From: an uncultured Pseudomonadota bacterium | Lineage (GTDB): Bacteria > Myxococcota_A > Bradymonadia > Bradymonadales > Bradymonadaceae | Direction of reading: 5' to 3' | DNA: 52,599 nt | NCBI GenBank assembly: GCA_950059285.1 | Contig: CATLTV010000010.1 | Location: forward strand, 1-52,599 | The notes under the pieces: model-generated | Database searches by the model: none | What the model saw: the letters and a program-made list of their open reading frames with translations, nothing else | What the model was told of the DNA's origin: nothing | Position numbers and translations under genes: made by a program | Part shown: positions 8,783-45,471 of the stretch, in pieces | How positions within the stretch are numbered: the first letter of the stretch is position 1 | Layout: every line of letters starts with the position of its first letter

Positions 8783-8849
8783 CAAGAAAAAGAGAGAGGG
8801 GGCGGCAAAAAATCGAAGATTTTTTGCCGCCCCCTCTCTCTTTTTCTTG
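8783..8849. terminator. Bidirectional terminator, 32-bp perfect arms
   Basis: Arms 8783-8814 and 8818-8849 are perfect reverse complements around a GAA loop. The outer arm is A-rich on the left and T-rich on the right, so each strand has its own U-run. It sits between convergent genes. Confidence 0.92.
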
Positions 8850-12005: not shown

Positions 12006-12076
12006 ACAAAGAGATGGGCGAGGATTAATGTTTTGCACTTTAAGTGCAAAACATTAATCCTCGCCCATCTCTTTGT
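12006..12076. terminator. Terminator hairpin with 35-bp perfect arms
   Basis: Arms 12006-12040 and 12042-12076 are perfect complements around one central T, followed by a T-run. The centre GCACTTTAAGTGC repeats the palindrome found upstream of the GST-TetR gene. It lies 18 bases after that gene's stop. Confidence 0.9.
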
Positions 12077-16175: not shown

Positions 16176-16193
16176 TAGGGTGGGTGTAAGAAG

Positions 16194-17060
16194 ATGAATC
16201 GTATTTTTCAGGTGTGTGTTATTGCTCTTGTGAGCGTGGTTTGGGCAGGTTGTGCGAGCACAACCATGCGTACTGCGAGGCAACTTGAGCCTGGTGATGT
16301 GGTGCTCTCTGGTAGTCTCGATGAGCTTGGTACGTTGTACATTCCTCGTGTAAATGCACAGGCAATATATGGCTTTGGTGCGGGTGATGTCAGCGCGCAT
16401 GTGGGGACATCACTATTGCTGTACAATTTAGGTGTTGGGGGCAGGTTCTACCTTGGTGAGGATTGGAACCTTGGCCTTCAGTATGACGCCAATGGTTTTC
16501 AGGATCTTGATCTCTTTGGTTCGACGACAGGTTTGACTGTACTGCATTCAGGTTCCGTGACCTTACTAAGCTCAGTGAGTCGTGACACAGGGTTTTATGG
16601 TGGTCTGTATTCAGGTGTACATGGTCTGACACAGGATGAGGCCACTGAATTTGCTGGCGTAAACGTGGGCGGTACGGTTGGTCTTGATGCGTTAATTGGC
16701 AACAACTGGGGGGTGCAACTTGAGGCAAGGTTTGCACCGTTTATGGTGACCAGCTCAGGATCATTAACGTTGTTCCCGGGAAGTCTGGTGAGCTCAAATA
16801 ACACCGAAGAAGCTGCCAGCAACACTATCTTTGTCGGGCAGATCGGCTTTGGTGTGTACAAGAGGCTCAAGACCAGAGAGAGAATTCCAGCCAGTGAATC
16901 TGCCTGGATGACGTCCTCGGAGGAGAGCTTTGAGCGAGCACGTCAGCAGGGGCAGCAAGTCGATGAGCCAACCAACGAACAAGAAGCGCCAGTCAAGCAA
17001 GAGCGTAAAAGGACTGCGCCATCATCAGGAGGTGCTCCTGCTCCGCCCATGCCCGATTGA
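16194..17060 (+). CDS. Beta-barrel-like lipoprotein, first tandem copy
   Basis: 288 residues. Signal peptide and lipobox VWAGC end at about residue 20; the mature protein begins CASTTMRTARQL. The body is rich in Gly and aromatic residues with alternating hydrophobic strands (FGAGDVSAHVGTSLLLYNLG), like small outer-membrane barrels. The C-terminus is a hydrophilic tail rich in Gln, Glu, Lys and Pro. The first 123 bases are nearly identical to those of the copy at 17211, while the rest has diverged. The ATG has TAAGAAG just upstream. The gene may be read through from rdgB. Function unknown; the barrel is my reading of the strand pattern. Confidence 0.82.
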   Translation: MNRIFQVCVIALVSVVWAGCASTTMRTARQLEPGDVVLSGSLDELGTLYIPRVNAQAIYGFGAGDVSAHVGTSLLLYNLGVGGRFYLGEDWNLGLQYDANGFQDLDLFGSTTGLTVLHSGSVTLLSSVSRDTGFYGGLYSGVHGLTQDEATEFAGVNVGGTVGLDALIGNNWGVQLEARFAPFMVTSSGSLTLFPGSLVSSNNTEEAASNTIFVGQIGFGVYKRLKTRERIPASESAWMTSSEESFERARQQGQQVDEPTNEQEAPVKQERKRTAPSSGGAPAPPMPD

Positions 17061-17109
17061 GTCTGGATTGGCTTTGTGGTGCTTTATTAGTGTAAAACTA
17101 CATTGGTAG

Positions 17110-17145: not shown

Positions 17146-17210
17146 GAACATTTGATGTGCATTGCTGGGGTTTTGAATTACTGATGTTCAAAACCTTCGG
17201 GGGTAGGACG

Positions 17211-17333
17211 ATGAATCGTATTTTTCAGGTGTGTGTCATTGCTCTTGTGAGCGTGGTTTGGGCAGGTTGTGCGAGCACAACCATGCGTACTGCGAGGCAA
17301 CTTGAGCCTGGTGATGTGGTGCTCTCTGGTAGT
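17211..17333 (+). repeat. 123-base near-identical repeat of the first copy's 5' end
   Basis: Bases 17211-17333 match 16194-16316 with one difference (T 16220, C 17237). Divergence is abrupt afterwards. It covers the signal peptide and first mature residues, so either recent conversion or strong selection keeps it. Confidence 0.9.
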
Positions 17334-17942
17334 GCGGAGGAGTTTGGTGCTTTTCTCATTCCTCGTGTAAGTGTCCAGGGCATATATGGTTTTGGCCTGG
17401 GTGATGTCAGCGCGCATGTGGGTACATCAGTGTTTTTGTACAATGCAGGTGTGGGGAGCAGATTCTACCTTGGAGAGCGCTGGAACCTTGGTCTTCAGCT
17501 TGATGGATTTACTTTGCCAGGGGCACGTCCCACGTGGCAATTGGCGACAGGAGCTATATTCTCGGGCTCTTTGACGCTTACGAGTTCTGTAAGGAGTGAC
17601 TCTGGAATGTATGGCGGGCTTTATCTGGGGGCGCTTGGTGCGCATGAGCAGGATACGTCTACGTTTGAGGGGATGAACGCTGGCATCATTTTTGGTGCTG
17701 ATGTGTTACAGGGCGATAACTGGGGAATGCAGGTGGAGTCAAGGTTCTCGCCACTTATGTTGAGTTCAACGGGGCGAGTTGGTGTGTTCCCTGTGAGTAC
17801 AATCAGGTCTGTAGATTTTGATTCGAATCTGACTTTTATACTTCAGTTTGGCGTTGGGATATATAGACGCCTCAGAACAAAAGAGCAGATACCAGCCAGT
17901 GAATCTGTCTGGATGGTATCTTCGGTGGAGAGTTTCGAGTGA
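17211..17942 (+). CDS. Beta-barrel-like lipoprotein, second tandem copy, truncated tail
   Basis: 243 residues from ATG 17211, which aligns exactly with the start of the first copy. The signal peptide and lipobox VWAGC are the same. The body follows the same strand plan with clear divergence. The hydrophilic C-terminal tail of copy 1 is missing: where copy 1 reads GAG CGA GCA CGT CAG, this copy reads GAG TGA TCA CGT CAG, so a CGA-to-TGA nonsense change ends it. The remnant of the tail and the downstream flank can still be followed at 17943-17981, with a deletion. A MITE sits 39 bases after the stop. Still likely functional because the barrel part is intact; function unknown. Confidence 0.8.
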   Translation: MNRIFQVCVIALVSVVWAGCASTTMRTARQLEPGDVVLSGSAEEFGAFLIPRVSVQGIYGFGLGDVSAHVGTSVFLYNAGVGSRFYLGERWNLGLQLDGFTLPGARPTWQLATGAIFSGSLTLTSSVRSDSGMYGGLYLGALGAHEQDTSTFEGMNAGIIFGADVLQGDNWGMQVESRFSPLMLSSTGRVGVFPVSTIRSVDFDSNLTFILQFGVGIYRRLRTKEQIPASESVWMVSSVESFE

Positions 17943-17981
17943 TCACGTCAGGTGCAACAAGCCATGCCCAATTGAGTCTGG

Positions 17982-18141
17982 AGCGTAATAAAGAAGAATT
18001 TGGAAGGAAAAGCTCGTGGAAAGCGAGGATTTCAGTGTCACAAAACCAGAAGGTAACATGGCTACATTTCTTGGTTTTTGTTCCTCGAACTCCGCGCGTT
18101 CTCCTTCGCTTTTCTTCTTCCATTTCTTTCTTCATCACGCT
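17982..18141. mobile_element. 160-bp palindromic MITE-like element, copy 1
   Basis: The element begins AGCGTAATAAAGAAGAA and ends TTCTTTCTTCATCACGCT, which are imperfect terminal inverted repeats of about 33 bases. It is bounded by CTGG at 17978-17981 and 18142-18145, a 4-base target duplication. The matching flank of the first lipoprotein copy (ATTGAGTCTGGATTGGC at about 17056-17072) has one CTGG and no insert, so it is the empty site. The middle (CCAGAAGGTAACATGGCTAC) is also palindromic, so the whole element can fold on itself. No ORF. A second, diverged copy is at 22028-22188. Confidence 0.85.
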
Positions 18142-18192
18142 CTGGATTGGCTTTGTGGTGCATGATGGATGAAGTGTGTTCATGACGCATAA

Positions 18193-18262
18193 GCAACGGC
18201 GAAGCACAAAAAAGGCAGCACATGTGTCCACATGTGCTGCCTTTTTTGTGCTTCGCCGTTGC
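18193..18262. terminator. Bidirectional terminator, 34-bp perfect arms
   Basis: Arms 18193-18226 and 18229-18262 are exact complements around TC, with A6 on the left and T6 on the right inside the arms. It would end both the lipoprotein transcript and the remnant gene read from the minus strand. Confidence 0.9.
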
Positions 18263-18272
18263 CTAATAGAGG

Positions 18273-18380
18273 TTAACCTCCGCAGGTGCTGTATGGGTAC
18301 TTTGTGGTTGCTGTCGCGCAGGGGCCCTGATTTCCTTGTGGGCACTGATATTCCCAGCTCCCGTTGTTACAAAATGCCCA
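18273..18380 (-). pseudogene. 3' remnant of a Cys-rich lipoprotein paralogue
   Basis: Read on the minus strand it encodes WAFCNNGSWEYQCPQGNQ and onward to a stop at 18275-18273, matching the last part of the lipoprotein at 20726-21910. Bases 18295-18380 match 20748-20833 with two differences. The final residues differ (YPYSTCGG here, YPNNECSN there), so this is a remnant of a separate paralogue and not a plain copy of the neighbour's end. Upstream an in-frame stop precedes WAFC, so no functional start exists. Its terminator hairpin at 18193-18262 survives. Confidence 0.8.
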
Positions 18381-20725: not shown

Positions 20726-21910
20726 CTAATTGCTACACTCATTATTAGGGTACTTTGTGGTTGCTGTCGCGCAGGGGCCCTGATTTCCTTGTGGGCACTG
20801 ATATTCCCAGCTCCCGTTGTTGCAGAATGCCCACAAGCAGCCCCATGTCCCATCAGATGTACACGTGTGATAGGTGTTATCTGGAGCGTTCTGGACACAA
20901 GTACCGTGGTCTACATATGTATTGCCCAGGGTGGAGCTGTAGCAGGGATCGAGGACCACGCAGGTGCCTGTGTTGACCCAGTCAAGGCAGCCTGTCGCCT
21001 GACGTGAGCAGGTCTGCTCGTTGTTGTTTGCATCGCATCGTGTGGCGTCTTCTGTGGTGCAGCGATCGGTGCATGTGGGTCCACATGCTGTTGCGTTTCC
21101 TGTGTTGACCCAGTCAAGACAACCATCTGCCTGTGTGACACACTCCTGCTCCACGGAGCCCTGACAGCGCTTGTCTCCAAGCATTGAGCATGTGTTGTTG
21201 CATTCGCGGACGCAGTCGCCGTTATTACAGGTGCTGCCTGCGCCACAGTTAAATGTGGACGCTGCAAACTGGAAGCAACCGCCGCCAATGTCTTCACACT
21301 TTTGGTAAGTCTGGCCGCCTTCTGTGACACAGCGTTGATCGCCCTGTGCACACTGGCTTTGACATTGTGCCTGACACACGCCCTGACCTGTGCAGAAGCC
21401 ACCTTCAAGACATGGTTCGGGTTCGCTCCAGACAAGGCAACCGTTTTGCATTTCGCATGTCTGGACGCCACCATTGCCACACTGTTTCTCACCTTCTCCA
21501 GGGCAGGGCTCATCACAGCAAAGACCAAGCTCATCAACACAGATGCTAAATGGGCAGTACGAGGGCTGACTCCAGACCGAGCCGCCTTCACCATTGGGAG
21601 TACAGGTTCTAAAACGCTGCTCATCCACGCACTCGGTAGCATCAACCTCACAGTTGTCATTGGGCGTGCCCGTGCCTGTGTTGGGTGTGCCAAGATCGGG
21701 AGTGGTTGTGTTGTTCCCGCCCAGATCGGGCATGTTGCCTTCTCCACCAATGAACCCCATGTCCATGGTGGTGGATGTGTTTGGGTTGCTCGTTGAGTTG
21801 TTTGCGGTGTTATCTTCTGGTTCAAATACAAGAGGTTCAGGGCCACAACCCACGAGGGCGATGGTCATGATTGTGAAGAGATATCCTGCTTGTTTCTTGT
21901 GTTGCCACAT
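20726..21910 (-). CDS. Cys-rich repeat lipoprotein
   Basis: 394 residues. Signal peptide and lipobox IALVGC end near residue 22. A long Asn/Thr/Ser/Gly linker with MDMG, MPDLGG and TPDLG follows. The mature body has roughly five units of about 45 residues built on a pattern of C..RC....QQ.C....GCL.W (for example QADGCLDWVNTG and QATGCLDWVNTG), so it should be heavily disulphide-bonded outside the cytoplasm. The last 35 residues are shared with the remnant at 18273-18380. Likely a surface-exposed binding or structural protein; function unknown. A MITE copy lies in its upstream region. Confidence 0.87.
   Translation of the reverse strand: MWQHKKQAGYLFTIMTIALVGCGPEPLVFEPEDNTANNSTSNPNTSTTMDMGFIGGEGNMPDLGGNNTTTPDLGTPNTGTGTPNDNCEVDATECVDEQRFRTCTPNGEGGSVWSQPSYCPFSICVDELGLCCDEPCPGEGEKQCGNGGVQTCEMQNGCLVWSEPEPCLEGGFCTGQGVCQAQCQSQCAQGDQRCVTEGGQTYQKCEDIGGGCFQFAASTFNCGAGSTCNNGDCVRECNNTCSMLGDKRCQGSVEQECVTQADGCLDWVNTGNATACGPTCTDRCTTEDATRCDANNNEQTCSRQATGCLDWVNTGTCVVLDPCYSSTLGNTYVDHGTCVQNAPDNTYHTCTSDGTWGCLWAFCNNGSWEYQCPQGNQGPCATATTKYPNNECSN
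20748..20833. repeat. 86-base direct repeat partner of 18295-18380
   Basis: This is the 3' coding end of the Cys-rich lipoprotein gene. It matches 18295-18380 except at two positions. The pair brackets the low-GC RCC1 gene. Confidence 0.9.
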
Positions 21911-22027
21911 GCTTTACTCTGCCGTTGTTTGCTTGGTTTACGTGGTCGACGTCCAGACGGATTGTCTCATTGCAAGGGCTGAAACTCAAGGTTTTGTTGA
22001 TGAGACAGGCGTTGTTTTTATTGCCAG

Positions 22028-22188
22028 AGCATGATGAAGAAGGATGTAGTTGAGGAAAGGCGAAGAAGAAAGAGATGGCGCTCAAAACGCAAAAATCAAG
22101 ATGTGTAGCTGTGTTACATTCTGTTTTTGCGACACGAAACCTCTCGCTTTATACACGCGTTCCTTGTCTGTTCTGTCTTGATTGCGCT
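22028..22188. mobile_element. 161-bp palindromic MITE-like element, copy 2 (reverse orientation)
   Basis: It starts AGCATGATGAAGAAGGATG and ends CTTGATTGCGCT, with terminal inverted repeats of the same kind as copy 1, and is flanked by CCAG at 22024-22027 and 22189-22192. Compared with copy 1 in reverse complement, the central and distal parts align clearly (GATGTGTAGCTGTGTTACATT against GAAATGTAGCCATGTTACCTT, then CTCGCTTT in both). Length differs by one base. It lies between the divergent Cys-rich lipoprotein and EI24 genes, ending 21 bases before the EI24 start codon, so it may carry promoter or leader functions. Confidence 0.72.
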
Positions 22189-22209
22189 CCAGGTTTGTAA
22201 GGACTGGTG

Positions 22210-23152: not shown

Positions 23153-23219
23153 AGACAGACGCGGCGTGGGGGCGGCCAATTTACGCAGTAAATTGGCCGC
23201 CCCCACGCCGCGTCTGTCT
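23153..23219. terminator. Bidirectional hairpin, 32-bp perfect arms
   Basis: Arms 23153-23184 and 23188-23219 are exact complements around GCA. It begins two bases after the EI24 stop and lies between convergent genes. It lacks a long T-run, so termination would depend on the stem. Confidence 0.85.
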
Positions 23220-29750: not shown

Positions 29751-32700
29751 TGGGGGAGCATAGCACACTGACATCGTGCCCTGATGATAACGTCATCGTG
29801 GCGCTGCTTGAGGGCGAGCTTCAGGAGCATGAGACGAGAACTATTCAAGCGCATCTTGATTCGTGTGAGTCATGTTCTGAGTTATTTCAGGAGCTTATGG
29901 CTGTGATTGAGTCACAGCCTGGGCCAATGATGAGCGATGATGGGGCGAGCGCTGGCGTGCCAGCGCTCGCCCCATCATCGCTCATCATTGGCCGTTATGA
30001 GGTGCGTAGCATACTTGGCTCGGGTGCAATGGGGGTGGTGTACAGGGCATTTGATCCAGATCTGCAACGTGAGGTCGCGTTAAAGGTCTTGCGGCCTGAC
30101 AGGTTCCAGCAGGAGTCTTCGCGGCAGGAGGCTACAGAACGACTACTCAAGGAAGCACGTGCGTTAGCTGGTTTGAATCACCCTCATGTGGTGACTGTGT
30201 ATGATGTGGGGACCTGGAAAGAGGGGCACATCTTTATTGCCAGTGAGCTGATCGAAGGTGAGACAATTCATGAATGGGCCAAAGCGCGGTCATGGCAAGA
30301 GATCGTAAGCGCTTATGAACAGGTCGCAAGAGGGTTGTACGTGGCTCATGAGCGCGGTTTTGTTCACCGCGACGTCAAGCCTGCAAACATCCTGGTGCGT
30401 CGTGGCGGGCATGCATATCTGATGGACTTCGGCCTTGTTCAGGATCAACCCAGGCTGATGACAAGCTCACAGGTCGACTCAAGCCAGCTCTCACTGACAA
30501 TGACAGGCGTGATCTTGGGGACACCTGTGTATATGTCACCCGAGCAGCTGGATGGGCAGGGGCTTACAAGTTATTCGGATCAATACTCTTTTTGTGTTTC
30601 TCTTTATGAGAGTATTTATGGTTTTAGACCCTTTACAGGGAGTAACCTCGCGGAGCTCTCCGAGTCGCGCAAGAGAGCATTAAGCAAACCTCCAAGCAAG
30701 GAGATCCCGGAGTCCATATTTCGTGTATTGGAGAAGGGTTTGAGCCCCCGTATTCAGGAGCGCCACGCGTCCATGGAAACGCTCGCAGATGCACTCTCCA
30801 AAAGCACCACGCCTACATATAAAACGCCTCTGTTATGGACCGCAGGAGTGACAGCGTTAATCACACTCCTTGTGCTTGGCGTGTGGTCACAACAGCGAGG
30901 CTCACGTCAGGAGAGCAAGGAGCTGCCAGACTCAGCCTCACCCACGAATACGATCGCGTTGATCGAGGATATGCATGCAGTGCAGGATGATGATGTTATT
31001 GATGAAGTTGAATTAATTCAGGAGGATATGGGGTTTGTTTTGCGTGTTGAAGATATGGGCAAAGATGCACATGACGTCAGCACGCGCGAGCTTGACGTCG
31101 TTGATAAGCCTCCTGTTGTGGTCGCACGACAAGAGGAGCGAAAGGATGATGTGAGGTCTGTAAGCGCTGGCTCTTCATCAAAATCTGTGACACCCAAGAA
31201 GGGGCCATCTTTGGAGCAGGTCTATGAGAAGTGCTTACCTTCCATGGACTGTGACAAGATCCCTGACTGTTTGCCCATGGCATTGCAATACATCAAGTAC
31301 AATGAGCCCAGGGATAATGAGGAGCTGCGAAACCTGTATGCTGTGACTGTGCGCGCCAAGACCTGTGCCTACAAGCAGAGACGATGTGGTGATGCCGACG
31401 CATTGCACTGGTATGAGTTTCGCGAGTTTGCCAAGCCGTCCACGTGGAGCTCCACGGAATACAAGCGCAGTCATGCCAGAGTGTTTGGTATGAAATCTCC
31501 TTATTGTCCGTTGGGGACAAAGCATATCAACACCCCCGAGCTGAAGGTTGAGCAGCTTTTGGGAGCGTTGATTGCGCTAGGCGCGCAAGGCACCGCCCAG
31601 TCATGTAAGAAGGTTTGGGATGATCTGCGGCCAGGGTATGACGCGCTATACAAGCTTGATCCTCAGCCTGAGAACCTCAAGGCGTTGGCTGGCCAGTTTG
31701 AGCAGCTTAATACCTGTCTCAGGAGAGGCGAGTGTGACACTGCGCTGAAAGTGTGGACGGAGGTCTTGAACCTCAAACCTGACGCCAAATATATCAAGTC
31801 TCATGGTGTGGAGGAGTCGTTTTATTACAAGTACTCAGAGTGCGTGCCTCCAAAGGGGAGTGATTCTCAGGTTCAAGCCACATGGCTTCGCGCGAAGTTG
31901 AATTCAATCGATTACAAAAAGCAGGGGTCCTGTCAGGATGCCTATGAGCTTGTGGATCAGATATGGCCTGCGCTCGATCTCTCTGTGTTAGATAAGAGTA
32001 CGTTGGACGCGCTTGATTCTGGGCTTGATGATGTGACCAGGTGTTTGGTGCCAACGCATTGTGACAGGGCAAAGACGACCTGGTCAAGACGTAAGGGTTT
32101 GGGTTTTAAACCAAATTTGTTTGATGACTTGGAGGACGCGTTTGCATATCGCCACTGGCAGTGCGTTGAGGAGACATCAACATCAGAGCATCTGGCGTTG
32201 AAGGTTGAAGGACAACTCCACGCTGCATCAATGGAAGTTGCTCGCAAGAGTGATGGTGAATCGCTCAGGTTTTTGCTCGATACTTGGGCTCAGGCGAGCG
32301 ACACGTTGAAGTTGATCAAAACCAAAGAGCTTGATCGTAAGAGGCAGGAGTCTTTGTGGGGATATGTAAGGAATCTGGCAGCTTATATTGCGGTGAAGGG
32401 GGATTGTGATTCAGGGGCCAGGATTTGGGCTGATATGAAGAAGATGGGGTTTTACACGAGTCCACCAAGTTATGTGAATCAGTATGGAAAGAGCGGGCGG
32501 CGGTTGACCTTTGATGAGCAGCGGTTGAGGGAGTGGGCAGCGCATCCAGGTGTATGTGTACCTTCGGTCAAGGAGTTCAAGCCATACACGGTGTGGTTGA
32601 GCCGTTATCTTGAGACTCATGTGAGAAGTGTGGGCCTCAAGAAGTGTCAGAAGCAGCTCTCTTATGTGGCGTTAGATCCCAGGAGTTGGGGACAAGAAGC

Positions 32701-35358: not shown

Positions 35359-35427
35359 CACAAAAAAGAGGCGAGAGGGGGCGGCTATTGCTGCGCAATA
35401 GCCGCCCCCTCTCGCCTCTTTTTTGTG
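35359..35427. terminator. Bidirectional terminator, 33-bp perfect arms
   Basis: Arms 35359-35391 and 35395-35427 are exact complements around TGC, with A6 and T6 inside the outer arms. It separates convergent genes. Confidence 0.92.
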
Positions 35428-41445: not shown

Positions 41446-41507
41446 AAAAGCAAAAAAGGAAATGCGACACCCTGATTTCAGGGTGTCGCATTTCCTTTTT
41501 TGCTTTT
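41446..41507 (+). terminator. Terminator of rpmG-rpsR, 30-bp perfect arms
   Basis: Arms 41446-41475 and 41478-41507 are exact complements around TT, with A6 on the left and a T-run on the right continuing to 41509. Confidence 0.93.
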
Positions 41508-41579: not shown

Positions 41580-43394
41580 ATGAGAGTTTCTACAGCGAAG
41601 TTAGTGCGAGTGTGTGCTTCACGCATGTCGATGTTGGTTGCATGTGTGGTGTTGAGTTCGTGTGGGCAGTGTGATGAGGTGTTGCAGCCTTCAAATGCCA
41701 GAAGGGGAGCTCCGCCTGAGCCAGACGTTTTCGGTTACCCTGTGTACGTTGGGAGTGGGCAACCACCGGTGGACATCTTGTGGGTGGTGGATAACTCCTC
41801 TTCGATGTGTCAGGAGCAGAAGGTGTTGCGTGATAACTTCTCGGAGTTTGTGGCTGTGTTGGGCTCCACGAGTCTGGACTTCCACATTGCGTTGACCACG
41901 ACGCATGCGCCTGAAAGCTCGGCGACGATTGAGCCCGTGGCACGTGAAGCAAGGTTACAGTCCACACCACAGCCTGTGCCAGGAAACAACCAGGGGTGTC
42001 TGAGGGATGACAATGGCTTTGGCCCTCTTCGCGAGTCTCTTGATGCGGCCAAGCGTTGTCTTGCCGATGAATCCACGGCGGGCAATTACGAGTGGACTGA
42101 TGCCCAGATCGACTGTGCGTTGCAGAGCCCCACAAAGCAGGGGCAGACAGGGTGTGTGGCTTCTTCCAGCCTTCCTGATCGCAATGGTGATGAGCGCTAC
42201 GATATCTTCGATTTGTTCCCCTCAAGCAATGCGTACCGTTCAATTCCAAAGGTGTTGAGGGCGGAAGATTATCGACAGGCCAACGGTGCGCTTGATGAGG
42301 CGCGCCTTGAGCTGGACTTCTCCTGCATGGCGACCGTGGGAACGCGTGGTGATGGTTACGAGAAAGGTCTTCGCGCTGCTGTAAACGCGGTATCTCCCGA
42401 ACTGACAGGTAGTGCTGTTGAGCTTGCGACCGCAGACATGACCGCAGATAACCACGGCTTCATTCGTACAGATGCAGATTTCACGTTGATCTTTGTGACC
42501 GATGAGAACGATTGTTCACACGATGGTAGCGTGATGGAGCTTGGTAACACATGTGGTTCAAATATCTGCGAATATATGAACTCAAGTGCAGTGGCAGCAG
42601 AAGATAGCGCGTTGATTTCTGTTGAAACTTTGGCTGAGCAACTTCGTGAGAACCTCGCCACAACCAAAGGGCTTGCTGATGTCAGCGAGTTGAACGAAGT
42701 TGGCCTCTCCGTGTCATCGATCAACGGTACATCAAGGCGTTACAATGAGCCTTTCCCCACCTGTGGTTCAGGCATGAACCCTGAAGTGATCCCCGCATGT
42801 GCATCTGCGTTGGGTGAAGCGTATTCAGGCGATCGCTATGAGCGATTCATGAGGCAGTTCAGGAACTTCTACCCCAACAGTGTTCTTGATGGTGCAGCTG
42901 ATCCTGAAGCGGTTCGTCTTGACTTCACCAGGTACGAGCCACTGGGCTGGATGTGTACAGATACATTTGCTCCTGCGCTGACTGCGATTGCTGAATTCAT
43001 CGTCAAGCCTTCTGGTGGTTGTGTTCCCGTGATTTCAGAGGGTTGCGCTGATGGAGTGAGCTGTCCTGTGGACAGGTTCTCTGGAGAGCAAGGTGAGTGT
43101 AAGATGTTGGGGGGAGGATTGGGGTGGTCGTATTGTGACAGTGCTGTGAGGGTTGTGATGGAGCGTAAGCCCTTGCATGTGTTGGACATGTCGATTGAGG
43201 AGAGTGGGTATTGCATACCAGGGTCTATTGATGTGTTGGACAGAAGTGAGTCATCATGTGTGGTTGATCCTTCAAAGTATACGATTGATGCATGTGACAC
43301 AGGAGCAGGGTTCATGGTGACATGGACAGATGAGCTTGATGTGGTTGAGGAGAAGCTGGCTGGATACAAGGTTGAAGTGCAATATGGGCAGTAG
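41580..43394 (+). CDS. VWA-domain lipoprotein, first tandem copy
   Basis: 604 residues from ATG 41580, which has GAGGGG just upstream; several in-frame ATGs lie 12-21 bases earlier. Signal peptide with lipobox VVLSSC. A von Willebrand A domain starts with the MIDAS motif DILWVVDNSSSM and continues with FTLIFVTDENDCS; it is interrupted by large insertions with paired cysteines. VWA domains bind metal and protein ligands, so a surface adhesin-like role is plausible. Bases 41869-42910 are identical to 43867-44908 in the next gene, while both ends differ. No terminator separates this gene from its twin. Confidence 0.87.
   Translation: MRVSTAKLVRVCASRMSMLVACVVLSSCGQCDEVLQPSNARRGAPPEPDVFGYPVYVGSGQPPVDILWVVDNSSSMCQEQKVLRDNFSEFVAVLGSTSLDFHIALTTTHAPESSATIEPVAREARLQSTPQPVPGNNQGCLRDDNGFGPLRESLDAAKRCLADESTAGNYEWTDAQIDCALQSPTKQGQTGCVASSSLPDRNGDERYDIFDLFPSSNAYRSIPKVLRAEDYRQANGALDEARLELDFSCMATVGTRGDGYEKGLRAAVNAVSPELTGSAVELATADMTADNHGFIRTDADFTLIFVTDENDCSHDGSVMELGNTCGSNICEYMNSSAVAAEDSALISVETLAEQLRENLATTKGLADVSELNEVGLSVSSINGTSRRYNEPFPTCGSGMNPEVIPACASALGEAYSGDRYERFMRQFRNFYPNSVLDGAADPEAVRLDFTRYEPLGWMCTDTFAPALTAIAEFIVKPSGGCVPVISEGCADGVSCPVDRFSGEQGECKMLGGGLGWSYCDSAVRVVMERKPLHVLDMSIEESGYCIPGSIDVLDRSESSCVVDPSKYTIDACDTGAGFMVTWTDELDVVEEKLAGYKVEVQYGQ
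41869..42910 (+). repeat. 1,042-bp identical tract, copy A
   Basis: Reading both copies I find no difference between 41869-42910 and 43867-44908 (constant offset 1,998). Identity drops abruptly at both ends (A 41868 against G 43866; G 42911 against A 44909), which is the mark of gene conversion or very recent partial duplication. Confidence 0.93.
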
Positions 43395-43571: not shown

Positions 43572-45404
43572 ATGAAGAAGCGTTCAAACTCAACACAAAC
43601 CAGCTCTTCACGTCAGCATATGAAGGGAATGCTTGCAACTGCTTGCATGGCGGGATTGTTCAGCATCAGCCTCTTTGGTGCGTGTAACACAAACACTGTG
43701 GAGTATTTGAGCTCCGCAGGCGTGGTGAACAAGACCACTGTGACTCCAATTGGCGGACAGGTTCCGATGGACATCTTGTGGGTGGTGGATAACTCATTCT
43801 CGATGTGTCAGGAGCAAGAGGTATTGCGCGAAAACTTCTCGCAGTTTGTGGGCGTGTTGGGCTCCGCGAGTCTGGACTTCCACATTGCGTTGACCACGAC
43901 GCATGCGCCTGAAAGCTCGGCGACGATTGAGCCCGTGGCACGTGAAGCAAGGTTACAGTCCACACCACAGCCTGTGCCAGGAAACAACCAGGGGTGTCTG
44001 AGGGATGACAATGGCTTTGGCCCTCTTCGCGAGTCTCTTGATGCGGCCAAGCGTTGTCTTGCCGATGAATCCACGGCGGGCAATTACGAGTGGACTGATG
44101 CCCAGATCGACTGTGCGTTGCAGAGCCCCACAAAGCAGGGGCAGACAGGGTGTGTGGCTTCTTCCAGCCTTCCTGATCGCAATGGTGATGAGCGCTACGA
44201 TATCTTCGATTTGTTCCCCTCAAGCAATGCGTACCGTTCAATTCCAAAGGTGTTGAGGGCGGAAGATTATCGACAGGCCAACGGTGCGCTTGATGAGGCG
44301 CGCCTTGAGCTGGACTTCTCCTGCATGGCGACCGTGGGAACGCGTGGTGATGGTTACGAGAAAGGTCTTCGCGCTGCTGTAAACGCGGTATCTCCCGAAC
44401 TGACAGGTAGTGCTGTTGAGCTTGCGACCGCAGACATGACCGCAGATAACCACGGCTTCATTCGTACAGATGCAGATTTCACGTTGATCTTTGTGACCGA
44501 TGAGAACGATTGTTCACACGATGGTAGCGTGATGGAGCTTGGTAACACATGTGGTTCAAATATCTGCGAATATATGAACTCAAGTGCAGTGGCAGCAGAA
44601 GATAGCGCGTTGATTTCTGTTGAAACTTTGGCTGAGCAACTTCGTGAGAACCTCGCCACAACCAAAGGGCTTGCTGATGTCAGCGAGTTGAACGAAGTTG
44701 GCCTCTCCGTGTCATCGATCAACGGTACATCAAGGCGTTACAATGAGCCTTTCCCCACCTGTGGTTCAGGCATGAACCCTGAAGTGATCCCCGCATGTGC
44801 ATCTGCGTTGGGTGAAGCGTATTCAGGCGATCGCTATGAGCGATTCATGAGGCAGTTCAGGAACTTCTACCCCAACAGTGTTCTTGATGGTGCAGCTGAT
44901 CCTGAAGCAGCTCGTCTGGACTTCACCAAGTACGAGCAAACTGGCTGGATGTGTACAGATTCATTCGCTCCTGCGCTGACTGCGATTGCTGAATTCATCG
45001 TCAAGCCTTCTGGTGGTTGTATTGATGAGCCAGTGTACAGGTGTGAGACTGATGCTGACTGTCCTGCCAAGCTTTTCTCAGGCCAGCCAGGTGTGTGTAC
45101 TCCATTCCCTGGTATTGAAGGTCAGTCCTACTGTGACAGTGGTGTGGTGTTGAAGATCGAGCGTGATCCAAAGCAGGAAGCTACAGTGGATGATATCAAT
45201 GGTATCGAATATTGTATCCCTGACTCCATCAACCAGCTTGAGTCTGATAACGCCTCCTGCGTGATTGATCCTTCAAGGTATACGCTTGGTGGGTGTCCTG
45301 CTAGCCCAGGTGTTCAGTTCCAGTGGGTTGAGGCTCCCGAGGTTGTCTCCAACAAGCTTGCTGGTTACACACTTGAGACCATCTTCAGCATTACTCCCGA
45401 GTAG
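43572..45404 (+). CDS. VWA-domain lipoprotein, second tandem copy
   Basis: 610 residues. Signal peptide with lipobox SLFGAC near residue 37. The MIDAS motif is DILWVVDNSFSM, with the same Cys-paired insertions as the first copy. The central 347 residues are encoded by DNA identical to the first copy. N-terminus and the last 165 residues differ, for example YRCETDADCPAKLFSGQPGV here. ATG 43572 has AAGGAAG six bases upstream. The variable ends around a fixed core suggest distinct anchors or ligands. The gene ends in a 28-bp-arm hairpin shared with a convergent glycosyltransferase. Confidence 0.88.
   Translation: MKKRSNSTQTSSSRQHMKGMLATACMAGLFSISLFGACNTNTVEYLSSAGVVNKTTVTPIGGQVPMDILWVVDNSFSMCQEQEVLRENFSQFVGVLGSASLDFHIALTTTHAPESSATIEPVAREARLQSTPQPVPGNNQGCLRDDNGFGPLRESLDAAKRCLADESTAGNYEWTDAQIDCALQSPTKQGQTGCVASSSLPDRNGDERYDIFDLFPSSNAYRSIPKVLRAEDYRQANGALDEARLELDFSCMATVGTRGDGYEKGLRAAVNAVSPELTGSAVELATADMTADNHGFIRTDADFTLIFVTDENDCSHDGSVMELGNTCGSNICEYMNSSAVAAEDSALISVETLAEQLRENLATTKGLADVSELNEVGLSVSSINGTSRRYNEPFPTCGSGMNPEVIPACASALGEAYSGDRYERFMRQFRNFYPNSVLDGAADPEAARLDFTKYEQTGWMCTDSFAPALTAIAEFIVKPSGGCIDEPVYRCETDADCPAKLFSGQPGVCTPFPGIEGQSYCDSGVVLKIERDPKQEATVDDINGIEYCIPDSINQLESDNASCVIDPSRYTLGGCPASPGVQFQWVEAPEVVSNKLAGYTLETIFSITPE
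43867..44908 (+). repeat. 1,042-bp identical tract, copy B
   Basis: Partner of 41869-42910. It includes the third codon positions, so the identity cannot come from protein selection. Confidence 0.93.
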
Positions 45405-45412
45405 AGCGTACT

Positions 45413-45471
45413 CAAGAAAGAAGAAGGGGCGACCATTTGCGCAGCAAATGGTCGCCCCTTCTTCTTTCTTG
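45413..45471. terminator. Bidirectional terminator, 28-bp perfect arms
   Basis: Arms 45413-45440 and 45444-45471 are exact complements around GCA, the same loop as the hairpin at 23153. It lies between convergent genes. Confidence 0.92.

Follow-up and report, generated by a model that had tools for sequence, protein, structure and literature searches.

A stop-codon-associated family of short palindromic elements with Y-TA-R targets in a Bradymonadaceae genome

The window, by which we mean the whole 52,599-nt stretch of DNA analysed here (contig C10 of a 6.65-Mb assembly in 441 contigs), holds two copies of a short inverted-repeat element. Copy 1 (17981–18142, plus strand) is 162 bp long, reads GAGCGTAATAAAGAAG...CTTTCTTCATCACGCTC and belongs to a subgroup of 8 copies that are 94–97% identical. 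Upstream of it lies a tandem lipoprotein paralogue (17157–17942, plus strand), which ends before the insertion and contains a repeat block (17199–17498) that is 87% identical to 16182–16481. The left terminal inverted repeat (TIR) of copy 1 spans 17981–17997 (plus strand; family consensus GAGCGTAATAAAGAAGG) and the right one 18126–18142 (minus strand; inward reading GAGCGTGATGAAGAAAG, family consensus GAGCGTGATGGAGAAGG), with a duplicated TG on either side, at 17979–17980 and 18143–18144. A paralogous empty site, a single uninterrupted CTGG (C-TG-G, of the form Y-TG-R) at 17063–17066 on the plus strand, stands just 3′ of the TGA stop (17058–17060) of the upstream lipoprotein copy. Aligned with the sequence bordering copy 1, the surroundings of this site are 95% identical over 21 bp and 92% over 26 bp, in agreement with the first-pass annotation, which had pointed to it. 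That annotation also described a 160-base insert with CTGG on both sides, and the sequence is present as described, CTGG at 17978–17981 and 18142–18145 bracketing the insert (CTGG-AGCG...CGCT-CTGG); the best element boundaries are 17981–18142, GAGCG...CGCTC. Further along, a fragment 3′ of copy 1 and of a terminator hairpin (18295–18380) is one member of an 86-bp pair repeated at 98%, the other member (20748–20833) lying in the 3′ part of ORF 20726–21910.

Copy 2 (22027–22189, minus strand, 163 bp) is the most diverged full-length copy of the family, its nearest relative being 74.8% identical. It is flanked by a 2-bp duplication of CA (22025–22026 and 22190–22191), which is TG in the orientation of the element, and its site is intergenic, between divergent ORFs starting at 21910 (minus strand) and 22207 (plus strand). 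The kinship of the two copies, suspected when the second was noticed, is confirmed by their alignment in reverse orientation, at 67% identity with an E value of about 1e-14 within the window, and by a profile score for copy 2 of 109.6 bits in nhmmer. The further suggestion that the whole element folds into one long hairpin holds for copy 1 as DNA (−32.1 kcal/mol, z −4.1 versus shuffled sequence) and fails for copy 2, whose fold is no better than that of shuffles (z +0.3).

With copy 1 as query, BLAST scores 40 matches in the same genome at 77–100% identity, and a family sequence model built from 43 copies returns 134 rows; counting rows on opposite strands of one palindrome as one leaves about 89 distinct places. 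The supposed MITE-like, palindromic, non-coding family of many copies is thus present. Roughly 50 of these places hold full-length copies; many of the remaining copies are truncated at contig ends, the element itself being a cause of breaks in the assembly. A near-exact TIR pattern has 132 matches in the genome versus 0 for a reversed control, and a copy number derived from looser TIR counts (647 versus 166 in the control) was abandoned as an overestimate in the light of the model search. In its properties the family is a MITE: short (162 bp), with no long ORF of its own, with TIRs of about 17 bp and element ends GAGCGTRATRRAGAAGG, dispersed with fixed ends among unrelated flanks, and accompanied by a target duplication (2 bp, identical in 31 of 47 copies) and the empty site at 17063–17066. 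Pairwise identity has a median of 80%, with nearest neighbours at up to 98.8%, so old and recent copies are both represented in the family.

Besides the full-length copies there are miniature forms of 51 bp, in which both ends are kept and the middle is lost; these are mostly TA-flanked and often at stop codons, and in this genome they occur at C81:135–185, C83:10701–10751, C9:24365–24415, approximately C8:37470–37520 and C4:11755–11805. A few further forms are of intermediate size. A second partial end (TA or TT followed by GAGCGT...) adjoins the copies at L133:14413, L127:9568, L131:17014, L112:10250 and the end of L053, which suggests repeated insertion beside an older copy.

Outside this genome, the family model was run under stricter filters on 378 other genomes of the phylum and matched none of them, and BLAST found nothing in 38 relatives; plasmid and phage records gave no match either. 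In GTDB contigs, searched with the exact 19-base end motif only, there are 22 single, unpaired matches, about the chance expectation. Isolated matches to the TIR, in relatives as well as in GTDB and viral contigs, were set aside, being unpaired, failing the profile and numbering close to chance. To date the family is known from this genome only, the sole member of its genus among those searched. Further copies, which the first-pass annotation had proposed to seek in the genome and its relatives, are therefore found in the former and in none of the relatives searched.

The flanks of 47 full copies define the target. The flanking dinucleotides are identical in 31 (TA/TA in 28, TG/TG in 3) and mixed in the rest, base −3 is Y (C or T) in 43, base +3 is R (A or G) in all 47, and the element has invariant ends, G as its first base and C as its last. 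The 4-bp CTGG duplication around an AGCG...CGCT element that had been read from the two window copies is not upheld: left and right tetranucleotides agree in only 7 of 47 copies, compared with 31 of 47 fitted by a 2-bp model, so the target rule is Y-TA-R with a 2-bp duplication, usually of TA and sometimes of TG/CA. Flanks that lack a CTGG duplication do occur, which refutes the CTGG rule and leaves the reading as a mobile element unaffected. The CTGG of the window is one Y-TA-R-type site (C-TG-G), and the four bases first read as duplicated are two duplicated ones together with a conserved G on one side and a conserved C on the other; more generally, conserved end bases can simulate a 4-bp 'duplication' when only two copies are compared. 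For the 16 of 47 copies with unequal dinucleotides, later mutation or a relaxed duplication must be assumed. In a subset of copies (for example L103:3742, L104:1806 and L122:9818), AGAACC adjoins the duplicated dinucleotide (AGAACCTA/AGAACCTG), a possible sign that some members of the family favour a longer target.

These features are, in our judgement, probably those of a non-autonomous cut-and-paste MITE that multiplied in this lineage through a transposase acting in trans, most likely of the IS630/Tc1-mariner type, with stop codons as neutral docks. A near-palindromic, gene-free element with TIRs of about 17 bp would have multiplied in the lineage as a transposase supplied in trans cut at GAGCG...CGCTC, and insertion into a Y-TA-R site, at its TA or sometimes at TG/CA, would have duplicated those two bases. 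IS630 is said, in the title of a 1991 report by Tenzen and Ohtsubo, to prefer the TA in CTAG. Elements of the IS630 family (ISY100, IS630) insert at TA with a 2-bp duplication (PMC2170065), as the present family does; unlike it they encode a transposase, and no encoding relative with the MITE ends was found here.

Searches of the genome, the class, GTDB contigs and viral contigs yielded no transposase with matching ends; this absence is weak evidence, as multi-copy insertion sequences are often lost from fragmented assemblies. The sole IS630 (DDE_3) remnant in this incomplete assembly lies at the edge of contig C78 and was rejected as a partner, its end sequence being different from that of the MITE. 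Three DDE_Tnp_1 genes in the genome are without MITE-type ends, and a flank search of IS630 elements in the class showed no sharing of these ends. A candidate autonomous element at C176:1211–2697 (1,487 bp, the sole long TIR pair, with flanking TAs) was also rejected, as it contains no transposase and is bounded by two truncated MITE ends; its ORF, judged by eye from the translation, we take to be ketoacyl-synthase-III-like. The full-length transposon with AGC...GCT ends to which the first-pass annotation had looked did not appear anywhere searched, and so we infer mobilisation in trans. The TA target and the 2-bp duplication (with TG/CA as exceptions), and these features only, point to the IS630/Tc1-mariner type; a DDE_3 partner with the same TIR did not emerge, so we describe the family as probably working like an IS630-type MITE and do not file it as one.

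Descent of the same MITE from an IS5-family insertion sequence is an unlikely alternative to an IS630-type origin. Its attraction lies in the YTAR preference and the GAG ends: MITEPsy1, a 100-nt MITE of Pseudomonas syringae whose assignment to IS5 carries a question mark, has CTAG or YTAA as its insertion sites, and in the IS5-family element ISPsy19 the ends start with GAG (PMC3189936). However, MITEPsy1 has different TIRs and a 4-nt duplication (PMC3189936), a length that fits only 7 of the 47 copies here, and neither of the IS5-type domains DDE_Tnp_1_2 and DDE_Tnp_4 has a match in the genome.

Many copies sit exactly on the stop codon of a gene. In 21 of 49 complete TA-flanked copies (about 40%), the in-frame TAG stop of the adjacent gene consists of TA and the G of the element, and with single ends included this is the case for 30 of 86 TA-flanked elements. 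Among the single ends of the 86 is an end-like match at 45404 in the window, which probably belongs to a long terminator hairpin (45413–45471) and not to a MITE. Within the same 1.39 Mb, 15.7% of the YTAR sites that do not interrupt an ORF are stop codons, or 11.5% after flanking-base weighting (p about 3e-8 for complete copies), and complete copies at stop codons are about three-fold enriched over other intergenic YTAR sites; these statistics use simple ORF calls, not curated annotation, and most of the contigs counted were selected by TIR presence, not gene context. A 400-kb sample from other contigs has 2 of 3 usable copies at stops, a number too small for replication. The neighbouring genes are intact. 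When the flanks are joined, TAA or TAG reappears in 20 of the 21 stop-codon copies, and hence these proteins keep their full length. Pfam domains reach the protein end in an Aldedh protein (461/461), a FadL-type protein (421/421) and a di-haem oxidoreductase (499/499) with an element-made stop, and nearly to the C-terminus in an acyl-CoA dehydrogenase.

Because an in-frame Y-TA-R is TAA or TAG and G is the first base of the element, a copy landing in a stop codon would rebuild a stop (TA + G = TAG) and leave the protein unchanged, and stop codons would thereby become neutral docks. Selection against insertion within genes would explain most of the enrichment. Active targeting of gene ends, coupled for example to the ends of translation or transcription, could act in addition, the YTAR choice and the end base then making stop codons preferred, self-repairing sites besides selection; this addition to the MITE reading is possible and rather doubtful. 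It draws on the persistence of the enrichment against YTAR sites 3–60 nt downstream of stops (odds ratio 2.9, p 9e-4), where insertion should also be near neutral, although insertion between a stop and its terminator may not be neutral and the ORF calls are approximate. If targeting were active, the family could spread in a gene-dense genome without protein damage. A target rule of YTAR together with an end base G that regenerates the stop at the insertion point offers a simple, testable answer to the question of how non-autonomous elements can become numerous in a compact bacterial genome with the host unharmed.

The placement of copies directly at stop codons and 3′ of genes, and the palindromic fold of copy 1, could also be those of a functional intergenic repeat, a REP-like or terminator-like RNA retained because it acts at gene 3′ ends, for example in transcription termination or mRNA stability. 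We regard this as quite improbable, since precise 2-bp duplications and an empty site indicate insertion, copy 2 lies between divergent ORFs with a fold at chance level, no Rfam family matches above its gathering score, and the genome has its own, different long hairpins after genes. In a fold of the family alignment the terminal stems are conserved, and covariation contributes only −0.94 of −14.4 kcal/mol, so a selected hairpin is not supported; the palindrome is best seen as the extended inverted repeats of a DNA element, not as a selected RNA. Chance similarity or segmental duplication without a mobile family, which might have been entertained from the mere 67% identity of copy 2 to copy 1, is refuted by the constant boundaries and unrelated flanks seen at about 89 places.

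As a MITE, then, the family is new and of a known kind, close in habit to RUP of Streptococcus pneumoniae (PMC2229807, PMC3049150). Similar to the present family, RUP (107 bp, proposed mover IS630-Spn1) is a short, intergenic TIR element with about 100 copies in one genome and a TA-containing target, for which IS630-type mobilisation was inferred from target and ends (PMC2229807, PMC3049150); it differs, in a comparison made by description, in having a matching IS630 in its own genome and a density peak 50–150 bp from genes, not on the stop. Correia/NEMIS, Nezha and Chunjie, likewise compared by description, are bacterial MITEs of a comparable size class (PMC2229807, PMC10969869). BOX repeats of S. 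pneumoniae encode the 3′-end stop of a gene in 36 copies without evident truncation (PMC3049150), and the idea of a stop-supplying element thus has a partial precedent, but BOX is modular and is described as itself encoding the stop, which differs from a stop rebuilt out of a duplicated TA and a first base. A stop rebuilt exactly from the duplicated TA and the first base of the element was not found in the literature searched, and the words 'stop codon' are absent from a 2024 review of prokaryotic MITEs (PMC10969869).

Other repeats occur in the same DNA. Perfect hairpins with arms of 27–33 bp and tiny loops, all different in sequence, lie at 8783–8849, 12006–12076, 18193–18262 and 23153–23219, and further ones of the same type at 29922–29993, 35359–35427, 41446–41507 and 45413–45471. 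In 1.79 Mb of the genome there are 253 perfect hairpins whose arms measure 22 bp or more (up to 39 bp), and 159 of the 197 tested follow an ORF stop by no more than 60 nt; they resemble terminators of unusual length and perfect pairing. The window also holds two copies, 96% identical and about 2 kb apart, of a 300-bp block (41766–42065 and 43764–44063), which is probably part of a larger tandem duplication.
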